Source: Candidatus Dorea gallistercoris (GTDB lineage: Bacteria > Bacillota > Clostridia > Lachnospirales > Lachnospiraceae). Taken from it: a stretch of DNA of 34,508 bases. A program made the position numbers and the translations under genes. Position 1 is the first letter of the stretch. Each line of letters opens with the position of its first letter. The DNA is taken from positions 1-34,508 of the forward strand of contig DXGF01000008.1 of NCBI GenBank assembly GCA_019114065.1, in the 5' to 3' direction. Of the stretch, positions 1 through 27,735 are shown in pieces. The notes under the pieces were generated by a model. That model was not told where the DNA came from. It saw only the letters and a list, made by a program, of their open reading frames with translations, and searched no databases.

Positions 1-1860
1 GCCCAGTGCGAGAAGTCCAGGGCTGAGAAGCTGGTGGTGTTTTCTACCATTGACAGCCAGAATTATACCATGTGTTACGGGAAGAGCGGGGAGCGGCCGG
101 AGAAAGAATATCATACCAGACGGAGCTTCCGGGCTGGCCAGATGGAGGAACTGTGCGGTTACTTTGCCCGGAAGACGGATATCTGCACGGTGGTCCTGCA
201 GCTTCCTTATCTGGCGGACCATATCAACGACCAGAATTTCCTGGGCGGGATCTTCCACGCGATCTATGAGAGGCGGCCTGCTGTCTTTCCTTATCGGCGG
301 GAAGATCCGCTGAGCTTCCTTACCTTCCATGACCTGGCGGATCTGATGATACAGATCCATCTGGAGACAGAAGATCAGAACGGGACTTACTTTGTGACCG
401 GAGGGAGCTGTTACACCTATGGTGATCTGGAGGCCATGCTCCATCTGGTGAGCCCGGAATTCCGTGTTTCTTATGAAAACAACCCCTATGTCGTTGATAT
501 TTCCGAATATCCGTCCAAGTTAAGGCGGCAGTATGGATTTGTACCCCAAGAGAATGCCATGGAGCATATAGGCGCTTATTACAGAGCCTTTGTACGGGAA
601 GTGATCGGACGACGGCCCGGGATCTGGGAGCGGGCGTGGGACTTCATCGCCAGATACGGCAAAGGGGTATTTCTGTGCGCAGAGCTGGTCTTTTTGTTTC
701 TTCTGGCGGAATTCCTTAGCCAGTACACCTCTGAGAACGTATATTTTCGTTTCGTAGATGTCCGCCTCTTCTATATTGTGATCATAGGCACGATGCATGG
801 GATGCGCAGCGGACTTGCGGCGGCGGTGCTGGAATGTTTTGCGTTGGCATATCAATATCTGCGGATCGGGGTAAATGGAACCGTGCTGTTCTATAATATT
901 GAGAACTGGATCCCCTTTGCTGTCTATCTGACCGCGGGATCGATCACAGGGTATCTCTCTGACAAGAAATCAGACGCCCTTGTCTTTCTCAGGCAGGAGT
1001 ATGAGCTCCTGCGGGAGAAATATCTGTTCTTGAATGATATCTATCGGGGAGCGGTCCGCAATAAGGAGGAGTATAAGAAGCAGATCCTGGGATTCAAGGA
1101 CAGCTTTGGGAAAATCTTTGACGCGGTGCAGAAGCTGGATGGGGAGCTGCCGGAGAGCATCTTTTTGTCCGGGCTGAAAGTTTTAGAAGATATCCTGGAA
1201 AACCATACCATTGCCATCTATACCCTGGATTCCTGGCAGAAATATGGCAGGCTGTCGGTGTGTTCCAACAGTCTGGTCACAACTCTGATGAAGTCCATCT
1301 GCCTGGAAGACCATGAGCGGATGTTCGCGGCGGTAAAGCAGGGGGATGTATGGAGGAATATCCAGATGGATGAGGGAGAACCGATGTATGCCTGCGGGAT
1401 CTTCCGGGGCGGACAGCCGGCTCTTCTGGTCACGATCTGGAAAGTCAAGGTGGAACAGTATGGGATGAATTATGTCAATATCTTCCAGATCCTGTGCGGG
1501 CTGATGCAGACATCCTTCCTGCGGGCCCTGGAGTATGAGGAACTTGCCCGGACAGAATTCTATTATCCGAATACGAATATTGTGTATCCTTCCAGGCTGA
1601 CCCGGGTTGTGGAGGTGCAGCAGGAAATGAGGGAGGAAGGCGTGGCCGACTATGTGTTGCTGAAACTGGAAGACCAGGATAAGACAAGGGTAAATGAGAG
1701 ATTGGCCGGTCTGGTCCGGGCCAACGATGTGATCGGAGCGGACCAGGGAGGAAACCTCTATCTCCTGCTGGTACAGATGAAACAGGAGAATCTTGGGATC
1801 GTGGGAGAGCGTCTGATGAGCAGAGGGTTGAAGTATCAGATCGTGGAAAAGATTGGATAG
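1..1860 (+). CDS. pelD: PelD-like c-di-GMP receptor with N-terminal SDR/NAD-epimerase-like domain (5' end outside window)
   Basis: Frame is open from base 1 (AQCEKSRAEKLVVFSTIDSQNYTMCYG...). SDR-like N-terminal half, four hydrophobic segments around LFLCAELVFLFLLAEF...LFYIVIIGTMHGMRSGLAAAVLECFALAY, GAF-like middle, and a degenerate GGDEF C-terminus (VRANDVIGADQGGNLYLLL) with an RxxD motif. Followed by PelE/A/F/G-like genes. Confidence 0.82.
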   Translation, partial: AQCEKSRAEKLVVFSTIDSQNYTMCYGKSGERPEKEYHTRRSFRAGQMEELCGYFARKTDICTVVLQLPYLADHINDQNFLGGIFHAIYERRPAVFPYRREDPLSFLTFHDLADLMIQIHLETEDQNGTYFVTGGSCYTYGDLEAMLHLVSPEFRVSYENNPYVVDISEYPSKLRRQYGFVPQENAMEHIGAYYRAFVREVIGRRPGIWERAWDFIARYGKGVFLCAELVFLFLLAEFLSQYTSENVYFRFVDVRLFYIVIIGTMHGMRSGLAAAVLECFALAYQYLRIGVNGTVLFYNIENWIPFAVYLTAGSITGYLSDKKSDALVFLRQEYELLREKYLFLNDIYRGAVRNKEEYKKQILGFKDSFGKIFDAVQKLDGELPESIFLSGLKVLEDILENHTIAIYTLDSWQKYGRLSVCSNSLVTTLMKSICLEDHERMFAAVKQGDVWRNIQMDEGEPMYACGIFRGGQPALLVTIWKVKVEQYGMNYVNIFQILCGLMQTSFLRALEYEELARTEFYYPNTNIVYPSRLTRVVEVQQEMREEGVADYVLLKLEDQDKTRVNERLAGLVRANDVIGADQGGNLYLLLVQMKQENLGIVGERLMSRGLKYQIVEKIG

Positions 1861-1875
1861 AAAGCAGGGATAGCC

Positions 1876-2778
1876 TTGATCATAATGATTTTGATCCTCC
1901 ACGCGATCCTGTGTGTGGTCGCGTATGTACTGATGAGGATGTCGGTCCTGAAGTGTACCCGGGCAGTCATGCCGATCGTGTGGCTGATCCCTGTGTGGGG
2001 ATTTGCGGCAATGGTGATTCTGGAGTTGCGGGCCAGAGATGATAAGAAAAACAGGGTAGAGGTGGGGATTGAAAAGCTGAAAGTCAACGATGCGGTACAC
2101 AAGAGTCTCCTTTTGGAAGAAAGCGCGGTGGAAGACCGGGTAGTCCCCCTGGAGGAAGCGCTTCTGATCAACGATGCGGCCACCAGGAGGCAGTTGATGA
2201 TGGAGGTGCTCTACGCCGACCCGGAGGACTATGTGGAACAGCTCAAGACAGCCCGCATGAACGAGGATACCGAGGTGGTCCACTACGCGGTGACCGCGCT
2301 GACGGAATTACAGAAAGAGTATGAGCTGCAGTTTCAGGAACTGGAGAGACAGCGGAAGGAAGACCCGGAGAACGAGGAAGTGACGGAGCGGTATCTTGAC
2401 GTCCTGAAGCGGTATCTGGAAAGTGGCATCGCGGAAGGCAATGAGCGGAAGATCAAGCTGACGATATACAGCAGCCTTCTGGAAGAACAGATCCGCCGGT
2501 ATCCAGAGGAACTGGATCTGCGGGAGGAGAAGGCCAGAGCGGATCTGGACACCGGCGCCTACGCGGCCACAAAGCGGGAGATCCGGCAGATCCTGGATCA
2601 CTGGAACAGAAGTGAAACAGGCTATCTGCTGATGCTCCAATACTATTCGGCGGTCTGGGACCGCAGGGGTATCGACGGCGTATTAGAGGAGATCCAGCGG
2701 AAAAATATCCATTTGACGCCGAGAGGACGGAGGATGACAGGATTCTGGAAGAAAGAAGAGGGCAGACGACAGGTTTGA
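1876..2778 (+). CDS. pelE: PelE-like membrane protein with N-terminal TM helices and helical/TPR-like C-terminal region
   Basis: TTG start at 1876 or ATG at 1885. Two N-terminal TM segments, then a charged helical region. Position between pelD and the deacetylase matches Gram-positive pel gene order. Confidence 0.65.
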   Translation: MIIMILILHAILCVVAYVLMRMSVLKCTRAVMPIVWLIPVWGFAAMVILELRARDDKKNRVEVGIEKLKVNDAVHKSLLLEESAVEDRVVPLEEALLINDAATRRQLMMEVLYADPEDYVEQLKTARMNEDTEVVHYAVTALTELQKEYELQFQELERQRKEDPENEEVTERYLDVLKRYLESGIAEGNERKIKLTIYSSLLEEQIRRYPEELDLREEKARADLDTGAYAATKREIRQILDHWNRSETGYLLMLQYYSAVWDRRGIDGVLEEIQRKNIHLTPRGRRMTGFWKKEEGRRQV

Positions 2779-4631
2779 AGAGGACAGGGACAGACAATAG
2801 AAAAAGACTGCGATTCCACCGGCTGCTGACGGTGCTGGGAGTATTTCTGATGCTGACCGCCGCGCTCTGTCTGGCTCAGGGGAATGTAAGCTATGAGCGG
2901 CAGGAACGGATAATGACACCGGAAGAACGGGTGCGGGAGACGGCAGATTCCGGAGCGGAGATCCTGGAACCGGAATGTCTGCTGGTGTGGTCGGATGACG
3001 ATATGGGTGCTCTGGGAAGGGAAATGATGGAGTCGGTCCTTGGTCAGATGCGGGTGCCCTACGATATCTGCGGGGACAAGGAGATCAGCCAAGTGGTATG
3101 GACAGACTACCAGACGGTAGTCTTATCGGTGACCGATCTGGGGCAGATGGGGGATAGTCTGCTGGATCTGCTGAACTGGGTAGAAGAAGGAGGCGGTCTT
3201 ATGCTGACTTATCCGCCGGAAGCCAATGGCATCTTCCAGAGCGTAGGGGGACAGCTTGGCATCGAGCAGATTGGGAATCACTATGTGGAGGTGTCCGGAC
3301 TTCACTTTCCCAGAGAATTTATGATCGGGGGCCAGGAGAAGGATTATCAGATCACAGATCCTTATGAATCTTCCCTGACGGTGGAGCTGTCTGACGATAG
3401 TCTGGTATATCTGGAATCTCAGGACGAGTATCCCACGCCTCTGATCTGGCGGAAGACGCTGGGAGAGGGAACGGTGGTGGTGGATAATCTGGGATTTCTG
3501 GAGAAAGGCTACAGGGGGTTCTATTCCGCCTCTTATGCTCTGCTGCAGGACGTCTTTGCCTATCCGGTCATCAATTCCTCCACTTTCTATATCGATGACT
3601 TCCCATCTCCGGTACCCGGAGGAAACAGCGAGTACATAGAGCGGGATTATCATATGAGTGTCTCGGATTTTTATACCAATGTGTGGTGGAACGATATTTA
3701 TAATCTGGGAGAAGCATATGGTATCCGCTATACAGGAATGGTGATCGAGGAATATTCAGACCAGGTAGAGGGATCTTTTGAACGGAACCAGGATGTACGC
3801 AGATTCCGGTATTTCGGGAATATGCTCCTGGACCAGGGCGGGGAGATAGGACTGCATGGATATAACCATATGCCACTGTGCCTGCCCGGATTTGACTATA
3901 AAGGAGAATATGATTCCTACAAATTGTGGAAAAGCTATGAAGATATGAAAGCCTCCATAGAAGAGCTGGAAGGCTTTTGCGAGGAACTCTTTCCGGGAGA
4001 GCGCTTCCAGGTCTATGTACCGCCTTCCAACATCCTGTCGGAAGAGGGAAGGCGGATGCTGGCAGAGGAGACGGATGTCCGGGCCATCGCCAGCGTTTAC
4101 CTGCCAAGCTATGATGGGATCCCTTATGAACAGGAATTCGAGGTGGCAGGGGACGGGGTGATCGAGACGCCCCGTGTGATCTCCGGATATCTGCTGGATG
4201 ATTATATGCAGGTGGTGGCTCTGTCAGAATTGAATTTTCATTTTGTGAACAGCCATTTCCAACACCCGGACGATGCCCTGGATGCAGACAGAGGCGCGGA
4301 ACTCGGATGGGAGGAAATGTATGGACGGCTGTCAGACTATGTGGAGTGGCTGTACGGGGCCGCGCCTGGGATCCGCAGCCTGACGGGAACGGAATTTGCC
4401 GCCGCTGTCCAAACTTACGACAGCCTGACGGTGGAACGTCAGCTTTCGGCCCAAGATCTGACTCTTACGCTGGATGGGTTCCAGAAGGAGGCCTGGCTGA
4501 TGGTAAGGATCAATGAGGGGACGCCGGGCGAGGTGGAAGGAGGGACGCTGACCCGGCTGCAGGAAGGGTTGTATCTTCTGGAGGCGGAGAAACCGATAGT
4601 CAAGATTGTGTTAGAGAAGGATATGAAATGA
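2775..4631 (+). CDS. pelA: DUF2194 / PelA deacetylase-domain-like protein
   Basis: Overlaps the previous stop (TTGA). N-terminal TM; polysaccharide-deacetylase-like motifs STFYIDDFPSPVPGG and GLHGYNHMPL (HxxxH). Immediately upstream of pelF. No hydrolase domain visible. Confidence 0.72.
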   Translation: MKRTGTDNRKRLRFHRLLTVLGVFLMLTAALCLAQGNVSYERQERIMTPEERVRETADSGAEILEPECLLVWSDDDMGALGREMMESVLGQMRVPYDICGDKEISQVVWTDYQTVVLSVTDLGQMGDSLLDLLNWVEEGGGLMLTYPPEANGIFQSVGGQLGIEQIGNHYVEVSGLHFPREFMIGGQEKDYQITDPYESSLTVELSDDSLVYLESQDEYPTPLIWRKTLGEGTVVVDNLGFLEKGYRGFYSASYALLQDVFAYPVINSSTFYIDDFPSPVPGGNSEYIERDYHMSVSDFYTNVWWNDIYNLGEAYGIRYTGMVIEEYSDQVEGSFERNQDVRRFRYFGNMLLDQGGEIGLHGYNHMPLCLPGFDYKGEYDSYKLWKSYEDMKASIEELEGFCEELFPGERFQVYVPPSNILSEEGRRMLAEETDVRAIASVYLPSYDGIPYEQEFEVAGDGVIETPRVISGYLLDDYMQVVALSELNFHFVNSHFQHPDDALDADRGAELGWEEMYGRLSDYVEWLYGAAPGIRSLTGTEFAAAVQTYDSLTVERQLSAQDLTLTLDGFQKEAWLMVRINEGTPGEVEGGTLTRLQEGLYLLEAEKPIVKIVLEKDMK

Positions 4632-6052
4632 AGATCTGTATGATATTAGAAGGGTGTTACCCTTATGTGACAGGTGGAGTTTCCACCTGGGTCCATCAGT
4701 ATATCAAGGCAATGCCCCAGCATGAGTTTGTGGTGTGGGCGGTGGGAGCCAACGCGAAAGACAGAGGGAAATTCAAGTACCAGATACCGGACAATGTGAC
4801 AGAGGTGCGGGAACTGTTCCTGGATGAAGCTCTGTCCATGGAGTATATCAGGGAGCACTACCGATTTCGGAAAGAAGAGATCCAGGCCCTGCGGGAATTC
4901 ATCAACTGCCAGAGCCCGGACTGGGAATGTCTGTTCCATATGTATCAGGACAAGAAGACCTCACCGGTGGCTTTCCTGATGAGTGAGGACTTCCTGAAGA
5001 TCCTGACGGAGCTGTGTCAGGAAGAGTACCCCTATACCAGCTTCGCTGATTTCTTCCACACGGTCCGGTCTATGTTGCTGCCCGTGTTGTACATTATGGG
5101 GGGCCAGGTGCCGAAAGCGGACCTGTATCACGCGGTCGCCACAGGCTACAGTGGGATCCTGGCCAGGCTGGGAAGCTATGTGAATCAGGTGCCCTATGAG
5201 ATCAGCGAACATGGAATCTATACCAGAGAGAGGGAAGAAGAGATCATCCGGGCCAAATGGGTCCTCCCCGAGTTTAAAAAGCTATGGGTGCGTTTTTTCT
5301 ATATGCTTTCCGGGGGCGCCTATGAGAAGGCATCCATGGTCACCAGCCTGTTTGAGCGGGCGCGGAAAATCCAGATCGAGATGGGGTGTGATCCGGATAA
5401 GTGCCGGTATGTGGCCAATGGGATCCATTATGAGAGATTTTCCGGGATTCCAAGGAAAAAAGAGAATGGGTATGTGGATATCGGAGCGATCCTCCGGATC
5501 TCGCCCATCAAAGATGTGAAGACCCTTCTGTACGCGTTCGCGGATCTGAAAGAGCGGGTGTCCAACGTCCGGCTTTATGTGGCCGGCCCGGAGGATGATG
5601 GAGAATACGCAAAGGAATGCTATGCGCTGAAAGAGCAGCTTGGATTAGAGGAGGCTTACTTTCCGGGGACCGTTGATACACTGGAATATATGGAGAGATT
5701 TGATTTTACCGTGCTCAGCAGCATTTCTGAGGGACAGCCGCTGGCGGTGCTGGAATCCTTTGCCGCCGGACGTCCATGTGTGGTGACGGATGTTGGCTGC
5801 TGCAAAGAGTTGATCTATGGAATGGAGGGGGATGACCTGGGGGCGGCCGGTTACTGTGTGCCTCCTATGTACCGGGAGGCGCTCTGTGACGCCATGGAGA
5901 GGATGTGCATCTATCCGGAGGAGCGCTGTCGGATGGGAGCGACAGGCAGAAAGCGGGTGGAGAACTTCTATCGGCATGAAGCTATGATACGTAATTATCA
6001 GCAGGTGTATGAAGAGGTGTTTCGAAGATGGCAGGAATCGGTTTCAGCTTAA
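4628..6052 (+). CDS. pelF: PelF-type GT4 glycosyltransferase (DUF3492)
   Basis: MKICMILEGCYPYVTGGVSTWVHQYIKAMPQHEF N-terminus and GT4 C-terminal motif SSISEGQPLAVLESFAAGRPCVVTDVG. ATGA overlap with the upstream gene. Confidence 0.93.
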   Translation: MKICMILEGCYPYVTGGVSTWVHQYIKAMPQHEFVVWAVGANAKDRGKFKYQIPDNVTEVRELFLDEALSMEYIREHYRFRKEEIQALREFINCQSPDWECLFHMYQDKKTSPVAFLMSEDFLKILTELCQEEYPYTSFADFFHTVRSMLLPVLYIMGGQVPKADLYHAVATGYSGILARLGSYVNQVPYEISEHGIYTREREEEIIRAKWVLPEFKKLWVRFFYMLSGGAYEKASMVTSLFERARKIQIEMGCDPDKCRYVANGIHYERFSGIPRKKENGYVDIGAILRISPIKDVKTLLYAFADLKERVSNVRLYVAGPEDDGEYAKECYALKEQLGLEEAYFPGTVDTLEYMERFDFTVLSSISEGQPLAVLESFAAGRPCVVTDVGCCKELIYGMEGDDLGAAGYCVPPMYREALCDAMERMCIYPEERCRMGATGRKRVENFYRHEAMIRNYQQVYEEVFRRWQESVSA

Positions 6053-9000
6053 AACGATTATTTCATCAAAAGGGCTTTTTTGCTCTGTGCAGGGCTTACG
6101 GCTATGCGGGGCTTATCTGCGCCGGACCTATGATCCTGGGCGTGATCCTGCTTGCCGGCATGAGCCTGGCGGCCCATCTGGCCGGCCTGTCGGACCACGA
6201 CAGAGAACTTTTGAATTGTATGATCACTTACTGCCTTCTGGCTTCTCTGACCTGCACCAGCTGGTTCAACATGGTCACCACCAGGTATGTGTCAGACATG
6301 CTGTACGAGGAAAAGCCGGAGAAGGTGCTGCCCTCCCTGTATGGAAGCTGCTCGATCCTGTTGGTGGTGGGGGCGGCTGTCTATGGAGTTTTCCTGTGGT
6401 TTTCCGGGGTGCCCTTCCTGGATCAGGTGCTGTGCCTATGGTTTGCCCTGATCCTGATCGTTGTGTGGATGGAGATGGTGTATCTGACGGCGCTGAAGGA
6501 TTTCCGGGGGATCGTGGTGGCGTTTGCGGCCTCACTGCTGATCGGATTTCTGCTGGCGCTGATCCTGATGGCAGGAGGATGGGCCAGTGTGGAGAGTCTT
6601 CTGCTGTGTGTGATCGCCGCCTATGGGAGTATGATGGTATGGTACTTTAAACTGCTTTTGGACTATTTTCCAAGAAGCGAGGGGAGTCGATTCTCCTTCC
6701 TGCGGTGGCTGGACCGGTACCGTTCTCTGGCGCTGTCCGGAGGACTTCTGAATATCGGACTGTTCGCTCATCTGGTGATCATGTATTTCGGTCCCCTGCG
6801 GGTGCGGGTAGAAGGTCTGTTCTATGGAGCGCCAAGCCATGATGTCCCCGCGCTGGCCGCTTTTTTCTCGATCCTGATCACTACGGTAAACTTTGTGACT
6901 TCGGTGGAGGTGCGTTTTTATCCGGCATACCGGAATTATTACAGTCTGTTTAACGATAAGGGGACGATCCGGGATATCCAGCAGGCAGAGAAAGAGATGC
7001 TGGGGATCCTGGAACAGGAGATGACCATCAGCGGCCATAAGCAGCTGATATCTACGATCTTGTTCGTGGTCCTGGGGAGTATTGTGCTGGAGTGGCTTCC
7101 CCTCGGATTTACCGATACATCCATTGGGATCTACCGGTTCTTGTGTGTGGGATACGGGATCTACGCTATCAGCAATTCGATGATGCTGATCTTGCTGTAT
7201 TTCGAAGATTACGCCGGGGCTCTGGCGGGAACAGCGGTGTTCGCCGCGGTCAGCGTGGCGGCGACCATCATTCAGAACCTGGAAAGGGAAATAGAATTTT
7301 TTGGCATTGGTTTTCTGGCCGGCGGGGTCTGCTTCTATCTGGTGGTCTGGTTCCGGTTGGAATGGTATACCAAGAGGCTGCCTTATTTTCTGCTCTGCCG
7401 GAAGTCCTTTGTCCCCAGCCAGGAAAAAGGGCTGTTCGCCAGACTGTGTGACTATCTGGATGAGAGAGAGGAGAAGCGCAAGGCGGGGAGCCGCCGGATG
7501 GCCTCCGGCGGCGCCATGCTTCTGTTGACACTGATCCTGATGGGCGGCACCTGGACTCTGACGGGATGCGGAGACAGCGGAGGAACCGGTTCACTGGAAG
7601 AAGCGCAAAGTATCAAAGGAACTTATGTGGAGAAAGAAGAGGAGCAAAAGGAGACGCTGGCAGACCAGCCAAGTGTCTACGCAGAGGATGAAGAGACCTC
7701 TGTGGTCACCATGTATCTGACGGTGCGCCAGGGAAACGCCGCCGACAACACAGATCATACCTGGTCGGAGATCAATACCTACGATACTTACTATTATGCG
7801 GACAATGGCCTGAGCCGGTATAACTGCGAGGCGCTTCTGCAGGTGGGAGACGAAAGCGGCCCGGCGGAGGAGGAAGTTGGATATGGAGAGACCGTATCCA
7901 ACGCCACTGTGCAGATCCGGGGACAGACATCCTCAAGAAGAGAACAGAAGAACTATAAGATCCGCATCAAGGAAGGGATGGGAGAATGGAGGGGACAGCG
8001 CACGATCGCGCTGAATAAGCACATCGGAGATCCCTTCCGGTTTCGGAACAAGCTGACCTATGATCTGATGAAAGAAATTCCTCAGATGATAAGCGCCAGG
8101 ACGCAGTTCGTCCACCTCTATGTAAAGGACGAGACAGAAGGAGGAAGCGGCGGCTTTGAGGATTATGGGCTCTATACCCAGGTGGAGCAGATCAATAAGA
8201 CTTATCTTCAGACCCATGGCCTGGATGACCGGGGATTCCTCTATAAGATCAATTTCTTTGAGTGGCTGCCCTATGAAGAACTGAGGCTGAAGACGGACCC
8301 GGAGTATGACCTAGGGGAGTTTGAGGGATATCTGGAGACCAAAGGGGACGATGATCATACCCGCCTTCTGGAATTGATCCGGGAGGTCAACGATTACGCG
8401 ATCCCCATTGAAGAGATCGTGGAAACCCATTTCAATCTGGATAATCTGTGCTACTGGATGGCGTTCCAGATCCTGACAGGCAATTACGATGTGGGATCCC
8501 GGAATTATTACCTGTACAGCCCAAAGAATTCAGAGAAGTGGTATTTTATCTCCTGGGACAACGATGCCGCGTTCTCCCGGAATTATCACCGGCTGGTAGA
8601 ATATACGGATGGGCAGTCCTGGGAACGGGGTCTGTCCCAGTATCTGCACATCGTCCTGTTCACCAGGATCTTCCGGGAGGAAGTATACCGGGATGCGCTG
8701 AGCGCGGCGGTGGAAGATCTGCGGGCCAATTATCTGACGGAGGAGAAGATATCTTCCATGGCCGCTGCTTACGCGGAAGTCGTGAAACCCTATCTGTACC
8801 GGGCGCCGGATCAGACATACGCGCCGGTGACGGCAGAGGAATATGACCGTCTGGTATCATCGATGGAAGAGGAGATAGCAGAAAACTACGGTTACTATCA
8901 GGAGAGTCTGGAGAAGCCCTGGCCTTTCTTTGTAGGCACGCCCAGGGTCCAGGATGGAAAGATCCAGGTGCAGTGGGACGCGGCCTACGATATGGACGGC

Positions 9001-9270
9001 GAGGAGATCACATATTCCTTTCTTGTGGCAAGAGATTATGAGTTTACCAATATCCTTTATCAAGAGGAAGATCTGGTCCTGCCGGAAGCCTCTTTTGACC
9101 GTCTTGCGCCAGGGCAGTATTATATCCGGGTCAGGGCCAGGAACGCATCAGGATATGTGCAGGACTGTCTGGACTATTACTCGAAAGACCAAGGCGGAAA
9201 AGTCTATGGAGCAAAGGCGTTTGTGGTAAATGAGGATGGAACGGTGTCAGATTATGTGGCGGAGGAATAG
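6028..9270 (+). CDS. pelG: PelG-type polysaccharide transporter fused in frame to a CotH-kinase-like domain
   Basis: MAGIGFSLKRLFHQKGFFALCRAYGYAGLICAGPMILGVILLAG is PelG-like and polytopic to about residue 480. Then MASGGAMLLLTLILMGGTWTLTGC (TM/lipobox), a CotH-like domain (ALNKHIGDPFRFRNKLTYDLM...FVHLYVKD...FISWDNDAAF) and a C-terminal FN3-like segment. Continuous frame of 1080 codons. Confidence 0.88.
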   Translation: MAGIGFSLKRLFHQKGFFALCRAYGYAGLICAGPMILGVILLAGMSLAAHLAGLSDHDRELLNCMITYCLLASLTCTSWFNMVTTRYVSDMLYEEKPEKVLPSLYGSCSILLVVGAAVYGVFLWFSGVPFLDQVLCLWFALILIVVWMEMVYLTALKDFRGIVVAFAASLLIGFLLALILMAGGWASVESLLLCVIAAYGSMMVWYFKLLLDYFPRSEGSRFSFLRWLDRYRSLALSGGLLNIGLFAHLVIMYFGPLRVRVEGLFYGAPSHDVPALAAFFSILITTVNFVTSVEVRFYPAYRNYYSLFNDKGTIRDIQQAEKEMLGILEQEMTISGHKQLISTILFVVLGSIVLEWLPLGFTDTSIGIYRFLCVGYGIYAISNSMMLILLYFEDYAGALAGTAVFAAVSVAATIIQNLEREIEFFGIGFLAGGVCFYLVVWFRLEWYTKRLPYFLLCRKSFVPSQEKGLFARLCDYLDEREEKRKAGSRRMASGGAMLLLTLILMGGTWTLTGCGDSGGTGSLEEAQSIKGTYVEKEEEQKETLADQPSVYAEDEETSVVTMYLTVRQGNAADNTDHTWSEINTYDTYYYADNGLSRYNCEALLQVGDESGPAEEEVGYGETVSNATVQIRGQTSSRREQKNYKIRIKEGMGEWRGQRTIALNKHIGDPFRFRNKLTYDLMKEIPQMISARTQFVHLYVKDETEGGSGGFEDYGLYTQVEQINKTYLQTHGLDDRGFLYKINFFEWLPYEELRLKTDPEYDLGEFEGYLETKGDDDHTRLLELIREVNDYAIPIEEIVETHFNLDNLCYWMAFQILTGNYDVGSRNYYLYSPKNSEKWYFISWDNDAAFSRNYHRLVEYTDGQSWERGLSQYLHIVLFTRIFREEVYRDALSAAVEDLRANYLTEEKISSMAAAYAEVVKPYLYRAPDQTYAPVTAEEYDRLVSSMEEEIAENYGYYQESLEKPWPFFVGTPRVQDGKIQVQWDAAYDMDGEEITYSFLVARDYEFTNILYQEEDLVLPEASFDRLAPGQYYIRVRARNASGYVQDCLDYYSKDQGGKVYGAKAFVVNEDGTVSDYVAEE

Positions 9271-9273
9271 CAG

Positions 9274-11046
9274 ATGAGAAGAGTGAGAAAAGAGATCTAT
9301 CTGGGAGCCTGTCTGCTGCTCCTGCTGCTGGCAGGATGTGGAGGCTTTAGCGGAACGGACGGAGGCTATCTGATCAGCGCGGATGAGACTTATGAGACGA
9401 CAGGGGAGAAGCCGGAGGATTATGTGGTGGAAGACCGCAAGACCCTGTACGAAGGAGAGGATCAGGAGGTTGTGACGATGTACCTGACGGTGGGGCAGGG
9501 AAACCAGGAGGATGGAACGGACCATACTTGGACAGAAGTGAACAGCTATCCGCTGGAATACTATGAGACAGAGGGGATTGATCCTTACCGCTGTGAGGCG
9601 GTCCTGCAGATCGGAGATGAGGAAGGACCCATCGAGGGGGAATTCGGCTACGGAGAGCGGGCGGCCAATGCCACCGTGCAACTTCGGGGGCAGGGAGCCT
9701 CCACCCAGCAGCAGAAGAGTTACCGGATCAAGATCAAAGACGGCAAAGGCGACTGGGAGGGGCAGAAAACAATCTCTCTGAACAAGCATGTGGGAGACCC
9801 GGTGCGCTTCAAAAACAAACTGGCTTACTCTCTGATGGAGGACATTCCTCAGATGTTTGGAGCCAGGACCCGGTTCGTCCACCTGTATGTGAAGGATAAG
9901 ACCCAGGGAGAGGAAGGGCTGTTCCGGGATTATGGGATTTATACCCAGGTGGAGCAGATCAACAAGACCTATCTGCGGAACCGGGGTCTGGATGAAGAAG
10001 GGCAGCTTTATCAGGCAGGACGCTCCTTTGACTGGGGCAGGCATGAGGACGCGATCCTTCCGGCGACAGACCCGGAGTATAATCAAGCCAGATTTGAGCA
10101 ATATCTTAAGATCGATGGCTCAGAGGACCATGAGAAGCTGGTTCGGCTGCTTGCGGCTGTCAATGATACCGAGAATGATATCCGGGATGTGATCGAGCAG
10201 TATTTCGATAAAGAGAATCTGTATTATTGGATGGCGTTCCATATCCTGATGGGAAATAAGGAGGCGCTGGAAGGAAATTATTATCTGTACAACCCAAGGG
10301 GGCTGGACCGGTGGTATTTCATCTCCTGGGACAATGACAGTATTCTGGAGGAAGGATATGAAACCCTGCGGGACGCCTCTTATGACAGGTCCTGGAAGGA
10401 GGGAATCTTTCTATTTGCAGAGCCCGTTCTTTTCCGCAGGATCCTTCGAGATACCTCCTGTCGGGAAGCGCTGAGCGCGGCGGTGGAAGATCTGCGAAAG
10501 AATTATTTAACGGATGAGGCGGTACAGGAGAAAATTGAGGTATATCAGGAGACGGTCAAGGCATATTTGTATGAACTGCCGGACCAGACTTTTGCCAGAG
10601 TGACGCCGGAGGAATATGACAGTCTGACAAGTACGATGGCAGCAGAGATCCAGGCTGACTATGAGGGCTTTCAGGACAGTATGGAGGGAATCTGGCCGTT
10701 CCACATCCTGACGCCTTCCGTCACAGGTGGAGAGACGGTCCTGAACTGGGAGGATGCTTATCGATTCCAGGAAGGGAACATAAGCTATGTGGTAGAACTG
10801 GCCAGGGACCCTGAGTTTGCGGAACTGATCCTGCGGGAAGAGACGGAGGAGAATCGTTATTCGGCCGGAGTCTTAGCGCCCGGGCAGTATTTTGTGAGGG
10901 TTGTGTCCCAGGGGCCCGAGGGGATCAGCCAGGACGCGTATGAATACTATCAGACAGAAATAGGAACAGTCAGCTACAGCACGCTCTGTTTCTATATCCA
11001 GGAGGACGGCAGGGCCGTCGCCCTTGAATACAGTGAGGATGGGTAG
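9274..11046 (+). CDS. CotH-kinase-like lipoprotein, paralogue of the PelG-fused domain
   Basis: Signal/lipobox ACLLLLLLAGCGG; TISLNKHVGDPVRFKNKLAYSLM, FVHLYVKD, YGIYTQVEQINKTYL, WYFISWDNDS; FN3-like C-terminus. Obvious sequence similarity to the second half of the preceding ORF. Confidence 0.87.
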   Translation: MRRVRKEIYLGACLLLLLLAGCGGFSGTDGGYLISADETYETTGEKPEDYVVEDRKTLYEGEDQEVVTMYLTVGQGNQEDGTDHTWTEVNSYPLEYYETEGIDPYRCEAVLQIGDEEGPIEGEFGYGERAANATVQLRGQGASTQQQKSYRIKIKDGKGDWEGQKTISLNKHVGDPVRFKNKLAYSLMEDIPQMFGARTRFVHLYVKDKTQGEEGLFRDYGIYTQVEQINKTYLRNRGLDEEGQLYQAGRSFDWGRHEDAILPATDPEYNQARFEQYLKIDGSEDHEKLVRLLAAVNDTENDIRDVIEQYFDKENLYYWMAFHILMGNKEALEGNYYLYNPRGLDRWYFISWDNDSILEEGYETLRDASYDRSWKEGIFLFAEPVLFRRILRDTSCREALSAAVEDLRKNYLTDEAVQEKIEVYQETVKAYLYELPDQTFARVTPEEYDSLTSTMAAEIQADYEGFQDSMEGIWPFHILTPSVTGGETVLNWEDAYRFQEGNISYVVELARDPEFAELILREETEENRYSAGVLAPGQYFVRVVSQGPEGISQDAYEYYQTEIGTVSYSTLCFYIQEDGRAVALEYSEDG

Positions 11047-11048
11047 AG

Positions 11049-11804
11049 ATGGCAGGTACTCTGCGGAAACGAGAATTATATCGAAATGAGTGGAAATATT
11101 ACATATCCCTGTGGGAAGGGGAACTGCTGAGGCGCCGGCTGGAGCCGTTCATGGAGGCGGACCCTTATGCCAGAGGGGGAGAGTATACGATCCGAAGCCT
11201 GTATTTTGACGATTACTGGGATTCTTCCTATGAGGAGAAGATCATGGGAGTAGAAGACCGCAGGAAATGGAGGATCCGTATCTATGACTACAGTGAATCC
11301 AGGATCAGGCTGGAGCGGAAGAAGAAGCGGGGAAGCTATATCCATAAGGATTCCGCGCCCCTTGAGCGCTCGGAGTACGAGAAGATCCTGGAGGGAGATT
11401 ATGGATTCCTGTTAAAGAGCAGATATCCTTTGTGCCAGGAATTCTATTATGAGTGTATGGTGAACCTGCAGCGCCCCAAAGTAGTGGTGGATTATGAGCG
11501 GAGGCCTTTGATCCGTGGGGAAGGGGATGTGCGGGTGACGTTTGACCGGAATGTGCGGGCAGGTATGTTTACCTGTGATATCTTTGATCGGGATCTTCCC
11601 GTGCGGGAGGTGCTGGAGCCGGATATGATGGTGCTGGAGGTGAAGTTTACCCAGCTGCTCCCGGGGATCATCAAGGAGCTGCTCCCTCTGGATGGACAGC
11701 AGTTTTCCGCTATTTCTAAATATACCTTGTGTTATGAGAAAGCTTTTTACCGGACAGATGCCCTGGCCGGGATCTCAAAAATAAACGGGAGGAAGAATAG
11801 ATGA
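11049..11804 (+). CDS. VTC-domain polyphosphate polymerase
   Basis: KREL.RNEWKYYIS, IRSLYFDDYWDS, RRKWRIRIYDY, IRLERKKKRGSYIHKDSA, VVVDYERRPL, RVTFDRNVRAG, MVLEVKFTQLLP, FSAISKYTLCYEK: the expected basic/acidic VTC tunnel motifs in order. Confidence 0.88.
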   Translation: MAGTLRKRELYRNEWKYYISLWEGELLRRRLEPFMEADPYARGGEYTIRSLYFDDYWDSSYEEKIMGVEDRRKWRIRIYDYSESRIRLERKKKRGSYIHKDSAPLERSEYEKILEGDYGFLLKSRYPLCQEFYYECMVNLQRPKVVVDYERRPLIRGEGDVRVTFDRNVRAGMFTCDIFDRDLPVREVLEPDMMVLEVKFTQLLPGIIKELLPLDGQQFSAISKYTLCYEKAFYRTDALAGISKINGRKNR

Positions 11805-12484
11805 GCATAAGAGATTATTTCAAAAACTCTGTGTGGGAGTCATTTGTGAGCGGCCAGGGATTGACGGCTGATTTTGCGGTGACGGCGGCCACGGCGATGA
11901 TCATGGCGGTGATCCTGGGGATCTGTATCTATAAGATCTACGGATTTTACTTTGGAGGCGTGGTGTTTTCCAGTTCTTTCGCCGTGACCCTGGTAGGGAT
12001 GACGGTGCTGAGCTGTATGTTGACGCTGGCGATCAGCAGTAATATCGTGATCTCTCTTGGTATGGTGGGCGCGCTGTCGATCGTGCGGTACCGTACCGCC
12101 ATCAAGGACCCGATGGATCTTCTGTACCTGTTCTGGTCCATCTCTGTGGGGATTACGCTGGGAGCGGGGCTTTCCATCCTGGCGGTGGCGACCATGATCA
12201 TCATGACTCTGGTGGTGCATATCTTCTACAACCGGAGGAAGAAAGGGACGATCTTCATCCTGGTGGCTCATTACGACACGGCCGTGGCGGGGGATGAGAT
12301 CCTCCGTATCTTACATAAGGTCCGCCATCAGTTGAAGTCCAAGACGATCCGGGGAGAGACGACGGAGCTGACGATGGAGCTTCTGTGCCGGACGGACAAT
12401 ACGGTATTCCTGGAGCAGATCCGGGCGGTGGAAGGAGTAAAGGACGTGACCCTGATCCAGTATAACGGAGAGTACCACGGATAG
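11801..12484 (+). CDS. DUF4956 multi-pass membrane protein
   Basis: ATGA overlap with the VTC gene; SNIVISLGMVGALSIVRYRTAIKDPMDLLYLFWSISVGI signature typical of DUF4956 partners of VTC proteins. Confidence 0.85.
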   Translation: MSIRDYFKNSVWESFVSGQGLTADFAVTAATAMIMAVILGICIYKIYGFYFGGVVFSSSFAVTLVGMTVLSCMLTLAISSNIVISLGMVGALSIVRYRTAIKDPMDLLYLFWSISVGITLGAGLSILAVATMIIMTLVVHIFYNRRKKGTIFILVAHYDTAVAGDEILRILHKVRHQLKSKTIRGETTELTMELLCRTDNTVFLEQIRAVEGVKDVTLIQYNGEYHG

Positions 12485-12485
12485 G

Positions 12486-13895
12486 ATGGGGGCAAGAATG
12501 AAAAAGAGGCGGTGGAAGACTGTGCACATAATCATATTAGGACTGACAGCCGTGATCGCGGCAGCATCTGTCTGCCTGTTTCTCCACCATGATCAGGCGG
12601 AACGGACGATCACCTTCCAGGAAAGCAGCGCGCCCTTGGACAATCCGCTGACAGGGTACGCGCCGCCAGCGGAGAATGTGGGAGAGTGTGAGGATTCCAG
12701 ACTGGTCTATATTGGTCTGACCTGGGCGGTGTGGGAGCCGGAGCCGGGGGAATATGACACGGAGGCCCTGGAGGAAAGGTACCACATCTCCCGGTGGAAG
12801 GAAGAGGGGAAGCATGGGATCTTACGGTTCCTGTGTGACCTTCCCGGGGAGGAAGACCATATGGATATCCCGGACTGGCTGTATGACAGGACCGGCGACG
12901 GGGTGTTCTATGATACCAGCTATGGACAGGGCTACGCGCCGGACTATAGCAATGCGTATCTCCGGGAACGGCATCGGCTGGCTCTGGAAGCCCTGGCAGA
13001 CTATTTTGGCGGCGATGCGTTTGTGGCCTATATCGAGCTTGGAAGCTTAGGGCATTGGGGCGAGTGGCACACCAACACAGACGAGGGACTTCTGCCTCTG
13101 CCTGACGCGGGGATCTGTCAGGAGTACGTGGCGGATTATCAGGAATACTTCCCGGAAGGCAGGCTTCTGATGCGCCGGAATTATACTATGGCGGCAGAAG
13201 GCGGCATGGGACTGTATAACGACATGACCGGAAGTCCGGAAGCTACCCGGGAGTGGCTGGGATGGCTCAGGGAAGGCGGCAGCTTTGAGACGGCAGGCGC
13301 GCCGCTTAAGTACCGCGGGATGGAGGACTTCTGGGAAGTCGCCCCCTGCGGCGGCGAGTTTACCAGTGCGTATCCCATGGGGGAACTTCTGGGAGAGCGG
13401 CTTTTAGAGACCCGACAGATGATCCGGGAGAGCCATATGACATTCCTTGGACCCAAATGCCCGGAGGGGAGCGAGAAGGAAGCGGAAGGAGCAGACCTGA
13501 TCCGGGAGGAACTGGGGTACCGGTATTATATTTCCCGGATGGAGATCCGGCGTTCCCACGGCCCGGGACAGATGCAGGTGGAGCTTACCTGGGAAAACAC
13601 AGGGATCGCCCCCATATATTGGGATTGGCCGGTGACCCTGTATGTCTATGACGGGGATGGAAACCTTCGACATCAGGAGGAGACCGGGCTTAGGCTGTCA
13701 AAGCTGTTGCCGGGGGAAACGGCAGAAACGTTGAGTCAGATTCCCTTTACAGAAGACTTGGAGAAAGGCTGCCAGATCGGGATCGGGATCACAGATCCAC
13801 AGAAACGAGTATCCCTGTACCTGGCTATGGAGTCCGAAAGGCGGGATCAGATACAGATCATCTATACAGAGCATGAAAGGATAGAAAAAAGATAA
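12486..13895 (+). CDS. DUF4874/DUF4832-type putative extracellular TIM-barrel (glycoside-hydrolase-like) protein
   Basis: Alternative start ATG at 12498. N-terminal signal anchor (VHIIILGLTAVIAAASVCLFL); DNPLTGYAPP, LTWAVWEPEPGEYD, YIELGSLGHWGEWHTN, RNYTMAAEGGMGLYNDMTGS. Confidence 0.75.
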   Translation: MGARMKKRRWKTVHIIILGLTAVIAAASVCLFLHHDQAERTITFQESSAPLDNPLTGYAPPAENVGECEDSRLVYIGLTWAVWEPEPGEYDTEALEERYHISRWKEEGKHGILRFLCDLPGEEDHMDIPDWLYDRTGDGVFYDTSYGQGYAPDYSNAYLRERHRLALEALADYFGGDAFVAYIELGSLGHWGEWHTNTDEGLLPLPDAGICQEYVADYQEYFPEGRLLMRRNYTMAAEGGMGLYNDMTGSPEATREWLGWLREGGSFETAGAPLKYRGMEDFWEVAPCGGEFTSAYPMGELLGERLLETRQMIRESHMTFLGPKCPEGSEKEAEGADLIREELGYRYYISRMEIRRSHGPGQMQVELTWENTGIAPIYWDWPVTLYVYDGDGNLRHQEETGLRLSKLLPGETAETLSQIPFTEDLEKGCQIGIGITDPQKRVSLYLAMESERRDQIQIIYTEHERIEKR

Positions 13896-13914
13896 ATCAG
13901 AGGAGGATAAGGAA

Positions 13915-14763
13915 ATGGCGGGAAGTGACAAAATGTTCCGTACAGCGATGTTTGGGGGGTATAACAGGGAGGACGTGGAAGAGTATGTCAGGACGGTAGA
14001 GCATGAGATCGACTCTATCAAGGTCCTGCACCAGAAGGAGAAGGCGGAGCTTCTGAGCAGACTGGAGGAAAGCGAGGCGAAAGCGGACTACAGCGAGCAG
14101 ATCCTGAACGCTGAGAAAGAGCGGGAAGGAAAAGTCAGGGAAGAGGAGAAGGCGAAAGAAGAGCCCAAAGAAGAGCCTAAGGAAGAGTCCAGGGAAGAAA
14201 CCGGGGAAGAGAAAGCCGCGGAAGAAGACGTTTCTGGAAAGCTGCGGCTGGAGATCGAGGAACTGAAAGCGGAAATAGAGAAGAAGGACCAGGAGTTGGA
14301 GAAGCTGAATGAGAAAAAAGGGGATGGACTGTTCGATTATGAAACAGTCATCCGGATCATGGAAGAGGCACGGCATAACGCGCAGCTGATCGAGAAGGAG
14401 GCGGCGCAGAAGGCTCTTTCTATGGTAGAAGAGGCGAAGACGAAGGCCAGAGAAGAAGAGGAACGCCAGAAAGGTATCATCGCGTCCAGAGTGAACGCCC
14501 AGCTGGAGGAAAAGGGGATCCAGCTCATGGCCGCCAAATATAAGATCGAACAGTACATGAAAGAAATCGAGAGCGCGCAGCAGGGGCTTTACAATCTGAA
14601 TGCCCGGATGGAAAAGATGGTCAAAGACATGCCGGCGCGTCTGGATGATTACTGGGAGGGAGAGCATTACCGGGAACTGGAAAATAAAAATGGAGAAAAA
14701 ATTCTGGAAAACGAGAAAGAACCGTCAGATATCTCTGGAATTATACATGCTGACGGGTTATAA
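13915..14763 (+). CDS. DivIVA-domain-like coiled-coil protein
   Basis: SD gaggagg upstream; MFRTAMFGGYNREDVEEYVRTVEHEIDSI resembles the DivIVA N-terminus (F.GY...DV..F/Y). Glu/Lys-rich low-complexity linker (EEPKEEPKEESREETGEE), then coiled coil. Confidence 0.7.
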   Translation: MAGSDKMFRTAMFGGYNREDVEEYVRTVEHEIDSIKVLHQKEKAELLSRLEESEAKADYSEQILNAEKEREGKVREEEKAKEEPKEEPKEESREETGEEKAAEEDVSGKLRLEIEELKAEIEKKDQELEKLNEKKGDGLFDYETVIRIMEEARHNAQLIEKEAAQKALSMVEEAKTKAREEEERQKGIIASRVNAQLEEKGIQLMAAKYKIEQYMKEIESAQQGLYNLNARMEKMVKDMPARLDDYWEGEHYRELENKNGEKILENEKEPSDISGIIHADGL

Positions 14764-25124: not shown

Positions 25125-26390
25125 TCAGCCTAACTCCGCGATCCTGGAGACACCCACATAGACTTCTGAAATCTTATACCAGGTCCGATAATCTACGATG
25201 CCGGTGACCGGAAGCCCGAACAGGGACTGGATCTTCTCTACAGCGGCGGCGGTGGCCGGTCCATAGATGCCGTCGGGGGTGACGGTGGGAATGGCAGGAT
25301 ATCCTTTGTGGATCACATTGATCTCTTCCTGCATCTGGCGGACTTTGTCGCCGGTGGAACCGATCTCCAGATTGTAGCCGGGCCAGGAAGCAGGGATGCC
25401 GGAGATGGCTTCTGCTGTATTGATGTACATATCTTCCCCGTAGAAGGAACGCAGAATCTCGATGGCGCGGTAGCCCTGGTCTCCCAGGGACTTGCTGCCC
25501 CACTGAGTCATCCACCCGGGACACTGGACCTGTCTGCCGTCACAGTATTGGGTCAGGATCGGCTGGCGCACATTTGGCCGGGACAGATAGGCAGCAAAGA
25601 GCTCATCCACAATGACGGAAATGGTATCGTACACATTCCGTTCCGGAATCCATTTGTGATCAAAGGCGGTAGAAGAAGTAATGGTGAAATCATAGCCCAT
25701 ATTCCGGTACCATTCGGTATATACGCGATTTAAGGTAAAGGACATGATCGCCAGCACATTTGCCCGGATGGTCTCAGCGGGCCAGGTGGCGTAGATCTCG
25801 CTGGAGGCCACATTCTTGATATAATCCTTATATTTTACATAATAGTCTTTGGCGGTAGAATCTCTTGGACTTCCGTCATGGACCACAATGTATTCCGGCA
25901 CTACGACACGGCTTAGGACGATCTCCCCGGTCTCTGTGACAGGCTTGATCTCACTTTCCGGTATTTTCGCCGGGTAGGACCCATATAATGTATGTGCGGG
26001 AATGACAAAGACTTCCTCCTCCGGGCCGGAGGGCCGCAAGGGCCGCAGGGAAATGTTCTGGAGGGCGATGACGGCAGGAAGGATCTCCGCTCCGGCGACA
26101 CTGACAGATTCATAGCCTGGAGCCTCCACCTGAATGGTATATTCCGAGTAAGGCTGCTGCTCATTGGCTTCGTTAAGGCTGTATTCCAGAGGGGGAGCGG
26201 CCAGGTCGATGGTTTCTGTCTGGCCGGAGGAATCGGTGGTAAGCTGCTCCAGCATACTATCAGGGACTCCGGTATAGGAAATCGAGATGGTGGCGTCCGG
26301 GACCGGATAGGCTGTGGCCTGGGATGTGACGCTGACCTGGAGCTGTCCGGTTTCCTGAGAACCGGATGAAAGGGGATTGACTGCATTCAT
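25125..26390 (-). CDS. SpoIID-like domain plus C-terminal peptidoglycan-binding (PG_binding_1) protein
   Basis: YKDYIKNVASSEIYATWPAETIRANVLAIMSFTLNRVYTEW (SpoIID-like); C-terminal GSTGDKVRQMQEEINVI...TPDGIYGPATAAAVEKIQSLFGLPVTGIVDYRTWYKI. Confidence 0.8.
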   Translation of the reverse strand: MNAVNPLSSGSQETGQLQVSVTSQATAYPVPDATISISYTGVPDSMLEQLTTDSSGQTETIDLAAPPLEYSLNEANEQQPYSEYTIQVEAPGYESVSVAGAEILPAVIALQNISLRPLRPSGPEEEVFVIPAHTLYGSYPAKIPESEIKPVTETGEIVLSRVVVPEYIVVHDGSPRDSTAKDYYVKYKDYIKNVASSEIYATWPAETIRANVLAIMSFTLNRVYTEWYRNMGYDFTITSSTAFDHKWIPERNVYDTISVIVDELFAAYLSRPNVRQPILTQYCDGRQVQCPGWMTQWGSKSLGDQGYRAIEILRSFYGEDMYINTAEAISGIPASWPGYNLEIGSTGDKVRQMQEEINVIHKGYPAIPTVTPDGIYGPATAAAVEKIQSLFGLPVTGIVDYRTWYKISEVYVGVSRIAELG

Positions 26391-26493: not shown

Positions 26494-27735
26494 TTGTCGA
26501 AAGGAGCAGGTATGTCGAAAGGAGCAGGTATGAGACGGAGAGCGCGCAGGCGGAAAAAGGGTTGTCTGGGAGTCGCGTTTATGGCACTGGTCTTAGTGCT
26601 GCTTCTTGGCGCGGCCGTGTTTCTTATCATAGGAGAACCGAAAGAAGGGGCTGGGCTTTTCCAGGCGCGGGAAGAGGAAATCCCATACCAGGAGGTCCAA
26701 TTAGAAGAGGGAGCTCTGGATCAGAAATATTATTACGGACAGATTCCCGAGGAAGAAAGAGACGCTTATCAGGAGATCCTTCAGGGGATCCAGGAACAGA
26801 AGGAGCAGATCTATGTACACTCTGGGAACGCGGACCGGACCAACGCTTTATTCAGTCTGGTGCTGAAAGATTTCCCGGAGATCTTCTGGTGTGACGGCAG
26901 GGCAAGCGCTACCGCTTATACCGGCGGGGAAGACTATACGGTGCTGGAACCAGAGTATCTCTACAGCGGGGAGGAAAAGGAAACCAGACAGAGGGAGATT
27001 GAGGCGGCGGCAGAGGAATGGCTTGCCGGTATTTCTGCCAAGGCTGGCGATTATGAGAAGATCCAATATGTGTATGAAACGATCGTAAATACCGTTGAGT
27101 ATGATGAGAATGCCACGGATAATCAGAATATCTACAGTGTCTTTGTCAATCGAAGGTCTGTGTGCGCCGGATATTCCAAAGCGGCCCAGTATCTCCTGGA
27201 GCGGCTGGGCGTCTTCTGCACCTATGTGACGGGGAAGACGGTGGGAAACCAGAACCACGCCTGGAATCTGGTCATCTGTGAGGGGGATTACTATTACGTG
27301 GACACCACCTGGGGAGACCCGGTGTTCCAGTCGGAGGAAGGCAGCCAGGAACAAGGATATATCAACTATGATTATCTGTGCTGCAGCGATGAGGAATTGT
27401 TTCGGACCCACACGCCGGATGCTGACGTTACATTGCCAGAGTGTACCAAAATGGACTGGAATTACTATGTGGTAAATGGCATGTACTATACAGAGTATGA
27501 CGGGGAACAGATTTTAAAAGACATGAATGAAGTGATCTCCCAGGGAGGAAATCCCTCCGTATTTAAATTTTCAGATTCTCAAGTATACGAACAGGCCAAA
27601 GAGGGGATTTTTGGAGATCTGATCCAAAGGGCGGCGGATAACCTGGCCAGATGGTATGGGCTGGCTGAGGTAAGATACCGCTATCTGGACGAGGAAGCCC
27701 AGAATAAGATCACGATCTACTGGCAGTACGAATGA
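26494..27735 (+). CDS. Membrane-anchored transglutaminase-like (cysteine protease fold) protein
   Basis: Start ambiguous (TTG 26494, ATG 26512, ATG 26530). N-terminal TM; NRRSVCAGYSKAAQYLLERLG (Cys), NHAWNLV (His), YYYVDTTWGDP (Asp) transglutaminase triad. Confidence 0.88.
   Translation: MSKGAGMSKGAGMRRRARRRKKGCLGVAFMALVLVLLLGAAVFLIIGEPKEGAGLFQAREEEIPYQEVQLEEGALDQKYYYGQIPEEERDAYQEILQGIQEQKEQIYVHSGNADRTNALFSLVLKDFPEIFWCDGRASATAYTGGEDYTVLEPEYLYSGEEKETRQREIEAAAEEWLAGISAKAGDYEKIQYVYETIVNTVEYDENATDNQNIYSVFVNRRSVCAGYSKAAQYLLERLGVFCTYVTGKTVGNQNHAWNLVICEGDYYYVDTTWGDPVFQSEEGSQEQGYINYDYLCCSDEELFRTHTPDADVTLPECTKMDWNYYVVNGMYYTEYDGEQILKDMNEVISQGGNPSVFKFSDSQVYEQAKEGIFGDLIQRAADNLARWYGLAEVRYRYLDEEAQNKITIYWQYE
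26495..26530 (+). repeat. Tandem 18-bp duplication of the SD plus start codon
   Basis: TGTCGAAAGGAGCAGGTA at 26495-26512 and again at 26513-26530, each followed by TG to make an ATG. Confidence 0.95.

Follow-up and report, generated by a model that had tools for sequence, protein, structure and literature searches.

A PelG exporter fused to a CotH kinase, with a predicted internal lipoprotein signal, in a Pel operon of "Candidatus Dorea gallistercoris"

We analyzed a 34,508-nt stretch of DNA from "Candidatus Dorea gallistercoris" (assembly GCA_019114065.1; hereafter, the window), which is the whole of contig DXGF01000008.1 in a 195-contig, 2.2-Mb genome. The window carries a Gram-positive Pel exopolysaccharide operon, probably of the SDR-PelD/CotH type, with already published accessory genes, in which the exporter PelG and a CotH kinase share a single open reading frame (ORF). 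We favor, with moderate confidence, a reading in which this operon is controlled by cyclic di-GMP (c-di-GMP) and the fused PelG-CotH places a lipobox-bearing kinase at the export site, together with a degenerate second CotH and a co-opted phosphate module composed of a VTC-type polyphosphate (polyP) polymerase and DUF4956. As far as our literature search shows, the fusion, the lipobox kept within it, and the degeneration of the second CotH had not been described before.

The fused ORF joins a PelG exporter (residues 1-453) to a full CotH kinase domain (residues 628-956). A survey of 200 genomes of the family (Lachnospiraceae) found no PelG-CotH fusion besides that of the window, and when the survey was widened to 397 family genomes, five, including the window's, had long PelG frames (1085-1108 amino acids [aa]). 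Examination of the individual loci verified the fusion in L254, L255, L256, and L257, which come from other genera of the family, and fusions of 1088 aa were also present in the complete isolate genome of Claveliimonas bilis c-25 (L175) and in Paenibacillus abyssi (L197), for a set of seven fused proteins including that of the window. L257, a single-contig genome, is near-identical to L175 and probably represents the same species. The occurrence of the fusion in a complete isolate genome, a single-contig genome, L254 to L256, and P. abyssi excludes an assembly error or a stop codon lost in this genome alone.

In a phylogenetic tree of PelG, the six Lachnospiraceae fusions clustered together, and P. 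abyssi lay far from them. The unfused proteins of L177 and L258 were nested among the Lachnospiraceae fusions at weakly supported forks, and the starred branches require at least two changes between the fused and unfused states. Based on this tree, we infer an old fusion event in one lineage and at least one further, independent origin. The fusion spans about five genus-level lineages, plus the separate origin in Paenibacillus.

All seven fused proteins have, at the PelG/CotH junction, a net-positive stretch followed by a hydrophobic segment of ∼12 residues and a lipobox (LTGC, LNGC, LSGC, VTGC, or LTAC; LTGC with Cys514 in the window). The n-region, h-region, and lipobox cysteine of a lipoprotein signal are thus found in 7/7 fusions, and processing at this site is predicted. 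In each protein, the junction motif is the single lipobox-type motif beyond residue 460, and its cysteine is residue 514 exactly in five of the seven, two of which are near-identical. The linker between PelG and CotH is otherwise highly diverged (17-56% identity among fusions). Neither L256 nor L197 has an ATG, GTG, or TTG codon from which translation of a free lipoprotein with a basic N-region could begin; in the window, in-frame ATG codons immediately precede the hydrophobic segment.

An AlphaFold model of the window PelG-CotH was confident for both domains, with a disordered linker (residues 490-542) and 12 long helices in PelG, from which the PelG C-terminus would be cytoplasmic. A simple hydropathy scan detected 11 segments in PelG plus the junction segment, and because these counts differ, we treat the topology as predicted. 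Exporter and extracytoplasmic kinase would be made as one polypeptide, and the basic stretch, short hydrophobic segment, and lipobox, probably a former CotH signal peptide, would take the kinase domain across the membrane. CotH is probably lipidated at Cys514, after which signal peptidase II may release it or it may stay attached. The outcome would be one CotH per exporter, sited where Pel leaves the cell, where its phosphorylation of a surface partner may tune the output or the attachment of Pel.

We aligned 99 CotH proteins, 12 of which were second copies from tandem loci. Both active-site Asp residues were kept in all 87 single, first, or non-pel copies, and one or both were lost in 6 of the 12 second copies (dyads E/D in the window, D/N in L057, E/N in L060, E/D in L211, and D/N in L254 and L258). 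These positions, which we take to be D228/D251 in the CotH numbering, were placed by alignment to the spore-coat kinase structure 5JD9. The dyad was intact in the fused first copy of all seven fusions, including the window (GNYD...WDND). The second CotH of the window has a Glu at the D228 equivalent (GNKE...WDND); it retains the CotH fold and, based on these residues, is probably not an active kinase but may serve as a degenerate partner. The fused copy resembles 5JD9 in its fold and Asp dyad but differs in being of the extracytoplasmic lipoprotein type and attached to an exporter, whereas 5JD9 is a spore-coat protein.

The Pel core (PelE, the PelA deacetylase, PelF, and PelG) is all there and in order. 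Ten co-directional ORFs fill bases 1-14763, from PelD to a DivIVA-like gene, and the run resumes 100 nt later, as follows:

1-1860, + strand: PelD, putatively SDR-PelD, 5' end missing at the contig edge; weak DUF4118 transmembrane (TM) region, PF13493 just below cut-off
1876-2778, + strand: PelE; own profile and position among relatives
2775-4631, + strand: PelA deacetylase (PelA_DA, DUF2194); PF09960, 511.7 bits, E 3e-153
4628-6052, + strand: PelF glycosyltransferase (GT4); NF038011, 339 bits versus a cut-off of 100; PF11997
6028-9270, + strand: PelG-CotH, single 1080-aa ORF; PF16933, 425 bits; CotH PF08757, 248 bits
9274-11046, + strand: second CotH lipoprotein, lipobox LAGC; PF08757, 213 bits; matches 5JD9
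11049-11804, + strand: VTC-type polyP polymerase domain, 251 aa; PF09359, 123 bits; Vtc4 match
11801-12484, + strand: DUF4956, MgtC-like; PF16316, 40.5 bits versus a cut-off of 30.6
12486-13895, + strand: DUF4832 protein, predicted Pel-directed glycoside hydrolase; PF16116, 57 bits versus 29; homologue SIR_1591
13915-14763, + strand: DivIVA-like coiled-coil protein, sub-threshold signature; recurs in L174-L176 and L257-L259
14864-18928, + strand: PAS-GGDEF-EAL c-di-GMP turnover protein, 1354 aa; EAL motif retained

A preliminary description of the sequence had reported a tight co-directional array with CotH kinases among its accessory genes. The array was borne out by Pfam and NCBIfam gene calls, with spacings between -25 and +19 nt (from PelD to the DivIVA-like gene: +15, -4, -4, -25, none where PelG and CotH are fused, +3, +2, -4, +1, and +19 nt). 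Two CotH domains are indeed present, but the first is encoded in the latter half of the PelG ORF and not by a free-standing gene. Because the window spans an entire contig, PelD is truncated at base 1; its N-terminal part lies beyond the contig end, and the remaining PelD had no Pfam match to an SDR domain. PelE had no Pfam match, and its call rests on our own profile and its position. A promoter/terminator scan of the window returned many weak consensus matches, none of them informative, and given the fusion and overlaps, no terminator could fit between pelG and cotH. The PAS-GGDEF-EAL gene is followed by pyrH, frr, and a uppS-cdsA-dxr-rseP block. Further along, a minus-strand protein (25125-26390) that has a peptidoglycan-binding domain and matches SpoIID weakly adjoins a transglutaminase-like gene (26494-27735).

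The identical gene order was found again in dozens of loci, which argues that the arrangement is not due to chance. The recurrent synteny of pel with CotH, VTC, DUF4956, and DUF4832, which the preliminary description had set as a test, had already been published: cotH, a polyP polymerase, DUF4956, and DUF4832 are contiguous with pelDEA(DA)FG in streptococci and clostridia, and this accessory block correlates with an SDR/epimerase domain on PelD (Whitfield 2020, PMC7112168). The window matches that cluster in core genes, accessory genes, and order but differs in the PelG-CotH fusion, the duplicated CotH with a degenerate second copy, and the added DivIVA-like gene. In three of the fused relatives (L255, L256, and L257), a tandem pair of full-length PelA deacetylase genes lies 5' of PelF, where the window has one. 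Another kind of Pel locus in this family has no CotH, VTC, or DUF4956 and carries one additional GT4 as well as DUF4832 proteins (L034-L042, L046, L049-L052, and L054); a same-genus relative of the window (G035) has the Pel type lacking these three genes.

PelD of the window has a degenerate GGDEF domain with an RxxD c-di-GMP site (motif RANDVIGADQGGN, with a third Arg at +31), and the same spacing of RxxD and Arg occurs in nearly all PelD proteins of this operon type. Retention of these residues makes c-di-GMP control likely. An SDR domain on PelD has been reported for clostridia (PMC7112168), and the window protein keeps the C-terminal RxxD site. The PAS-GGDEF-EAL protein likely regulates PelD output. 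In bifidobacteria, a diguanylate cyclase/phosphodiesterase gene in the Pel cluster replaces DUF4832 (PMC7112168), whereas the window gene lies 3' of DUF4832. C-di-GMP would thus control operon output through PelD, PelF would polymerize the sugar to the GalNAc/GalN polymer expected of a Pel cluster, PelD, PelE, and PelG would export it, PelA_DA would deacetylate it, and the DUF4832 protein would trim or release it.

The DivIVA assignment is weak, with scores (16.6 bits versus a Pfam cut-off of 28; TIGR03544, 19.4 versus 22) that do not reach curated thresholds. A single-sequence search matched 3/200 family genomes, the window included, so we rejected this gene as a general pel component; a profile search found it at six related loci (L174-L176 and L257-L259). 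In C. bilis, the region 3' of the DivIVA-like gene (L175:12939-17984), which corresponds in position to the PAS-GGDEF-EAL gene of the window, encodes a hybrid histidine kinase with a dCache domain, a REC-HD-GYP protein, and a GGDEF-profile protein.

The VTC protein is a soluble 251-aa domain. Twelve residues aligned to yeast Vtc4 (R12, E14, K16, R75, R77, E89, K91, R151, R162, E197, K199, and K224) were invariant across 26 sequences, leaving the catalytic tunnel intact. It shares these tunnel residues with Vtc4 but differs in having neither an SPX domain nor a TM/membrane channel domain in the same protein, and in its partner, DUF4956. The DUF4956 model (predicted local distance difference test score, 81) has an N-terminal membrane helical bundle and a C-terminal ACT/ferredoxin-like domain. 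Foldseek matched the C-terminal part to ACT and the MgtC C-domain; the whole fold had no match in the PDB at E≤0.001, and a sequence search returned nothing useful.

VTC was found in 150/200 family genomes versus 37 for PelG, and VTC-DUF4956 is mainly a separate module, apart from pel. VTC adjoined DUF4956 at nearly every locus in two sets, and outside pel the neighbor was often CotH (10 loci of one set) or a Cthe_2159-type carbohydrate-binding protein. Across L068-L127 and L128-L167, VTC and DUF4956 form a near-obligate pair phylum-wide, with CotH or Cthe_2159 (PF14262) as the third gene and often a two-component system nearby. We counted 38 pel-linked and 38 non-pel triads of CotH, VTC, and DUF4956, some of which may be one genome counted twice. 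All 38 pel-linked triads had the order CotH-VTC-DUF4956, whereas the non-pel triads were ordered VTC-DUF4956-CotH (34), CotH-VTC-DUF4956 (three), or CotH-DUF4956-VTC (one). Nineteen non-pel triads were flanked by at least 5 kb of sequence on either side and had no match to PelG or PelA profiles, e.g., L247 (recorded as Clostridioides difficile HC132). The published claim that the trio is absent outside pel (PMC12345266) therefore fails for gene content, although the CotH-VTC-DUF4956 order is rare there. At two of the three non-pel loci with this order (L198:7501-19045 and L204:7577-18257), the trio lies beside a PelF-like glycosyltransferase, with no PelG profile match; L204 has an epimerase gene and L198 an HD-domain protein, and both may be Pel-like or other exopolysaccharide loci.

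Deletion data are available from Streptococcus intermedius, in which the canonical pel genes are essential and each accessory gene has been deleted (mBio 2025, PMC12345266). Like the window, SIR_1591-1594 encode CotH, a polyP polymerase, an MgtC/ACT membrane protein, and DUF4832 beside pelDEA(DA)FG; unlike the window, with its fusion and two CotH copies, PelG is unfused, one CotH is reported, and streptococci lack c-di-GMP signaling. All four accessory mutants contained Pel and aggregated. Aggregation in artificial sputum was reduced by >50% in the DUF4956 and CotH mutants, with Pel higher in the former and lower in the latter; no significant change was reported for the VTC mutant. The DUF4832 protein SIR_1591 is a glycoside hydrolase and disrupts Pel aggregates. 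The preliminary description knew of no characterized function for the combined set and proposed looking for a Pel phenotype in accessory deletions; these data partly supply a function and show such a phenotype for CotH and DUF4956 but not for VTC.

These results bear directly on the preliminary proposal of a composite matrix, in which polyP made and exported by VTC and DUF4956 pairs with cationic Pel and CotH fixes the matrix by phosphorylating surface proteins. The intact VTC tunnel, the near-constant VTC-DUF4956 pairing, and its recurrent linkage to Pel speak for such a matrix, but it is not supported because the S. intermedius accessory mutants, including VTC, still make Pel and aggregate (PMC12345266), in the only direct test available, from an organism without c-di-GMP and under few conditions. 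The module also lies outside pel in most genomes, and DUF4956 resembles MgtC-ACT and is no established polyP channel, so we regard this proposal as quite improbable. Exported polyP might instead be the phosphoryl donor for an extracytoplasmic CotH kinase, which would explain the shared travel of the trio in equal numbers of pel and non-pel triads and fits CotH copies with N-terminal signals and fusions that place CotH outside. We consider this rather unlikely: a literature search on CotH with polyP or VTC gave no biochemical precedent, and VTC-DUF4956 also partners the non-kinase Cthe_2159. Viruses are known to make membrane polyproteins that are cleaved at an internal signal, and a literature text search found no bacterial polyprotein of this kind, which is weak evidence of absence. 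That PelG-CotH is a bacterial membrane polyprotein, processed at its internal lipoprotein signal by Lgt and signal peptidase II, with VTC-DUF4956-exported polyP as the extracellular phosphate donor for the kinase, seems very improbable.

The fusion could also be functionally neutral, if two overlapping genes lost the stop codon between them and translation of CotH still begins mostly at internal start codons. Several relatives do have overlapping pelG and cotH, and the window has in-frame ATG codons just 5' of its hydrophobic segment; against this, the fusion has been retained in about five genus-level lineages and has arisen again in Paenibacillus, and neither L256 nor L197 has an internal start that CotH could use. 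We judge neutrality unlikely. Several points also weigh against our preferred reading of a kinase placed at the export site by its fusion to PelG. Close relatives (L057, L060, L177, and L258) have pelG and cotH as separate genes, dN/dS (nonsynonymous to synonymous substitution rates) on the linker was uninformative with dS saturated, and an extracellular CotH kinase has no obvious ATP source. Read-through translation, lipidation, and cleavage of the fused ORF are predictions from sequence, and S. intermedius can make Pel without CotH (PMC12345266).

The physical tie between kinase and exporter nonetheless suggests that CotH works at the point of Pel export and is not a bystander, and PelG-CotH offers a case in which an internal lipoprotein signal within a multi-span membrane protein can be tested. 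VTC and DUF4956 would act here as a co-opted phosphate module of the cytoplasm and membrane. Their wide occurrence outside pel, with CotH or Cthe_2159, suggests a surface phosphate module with a general role in Bacillota.

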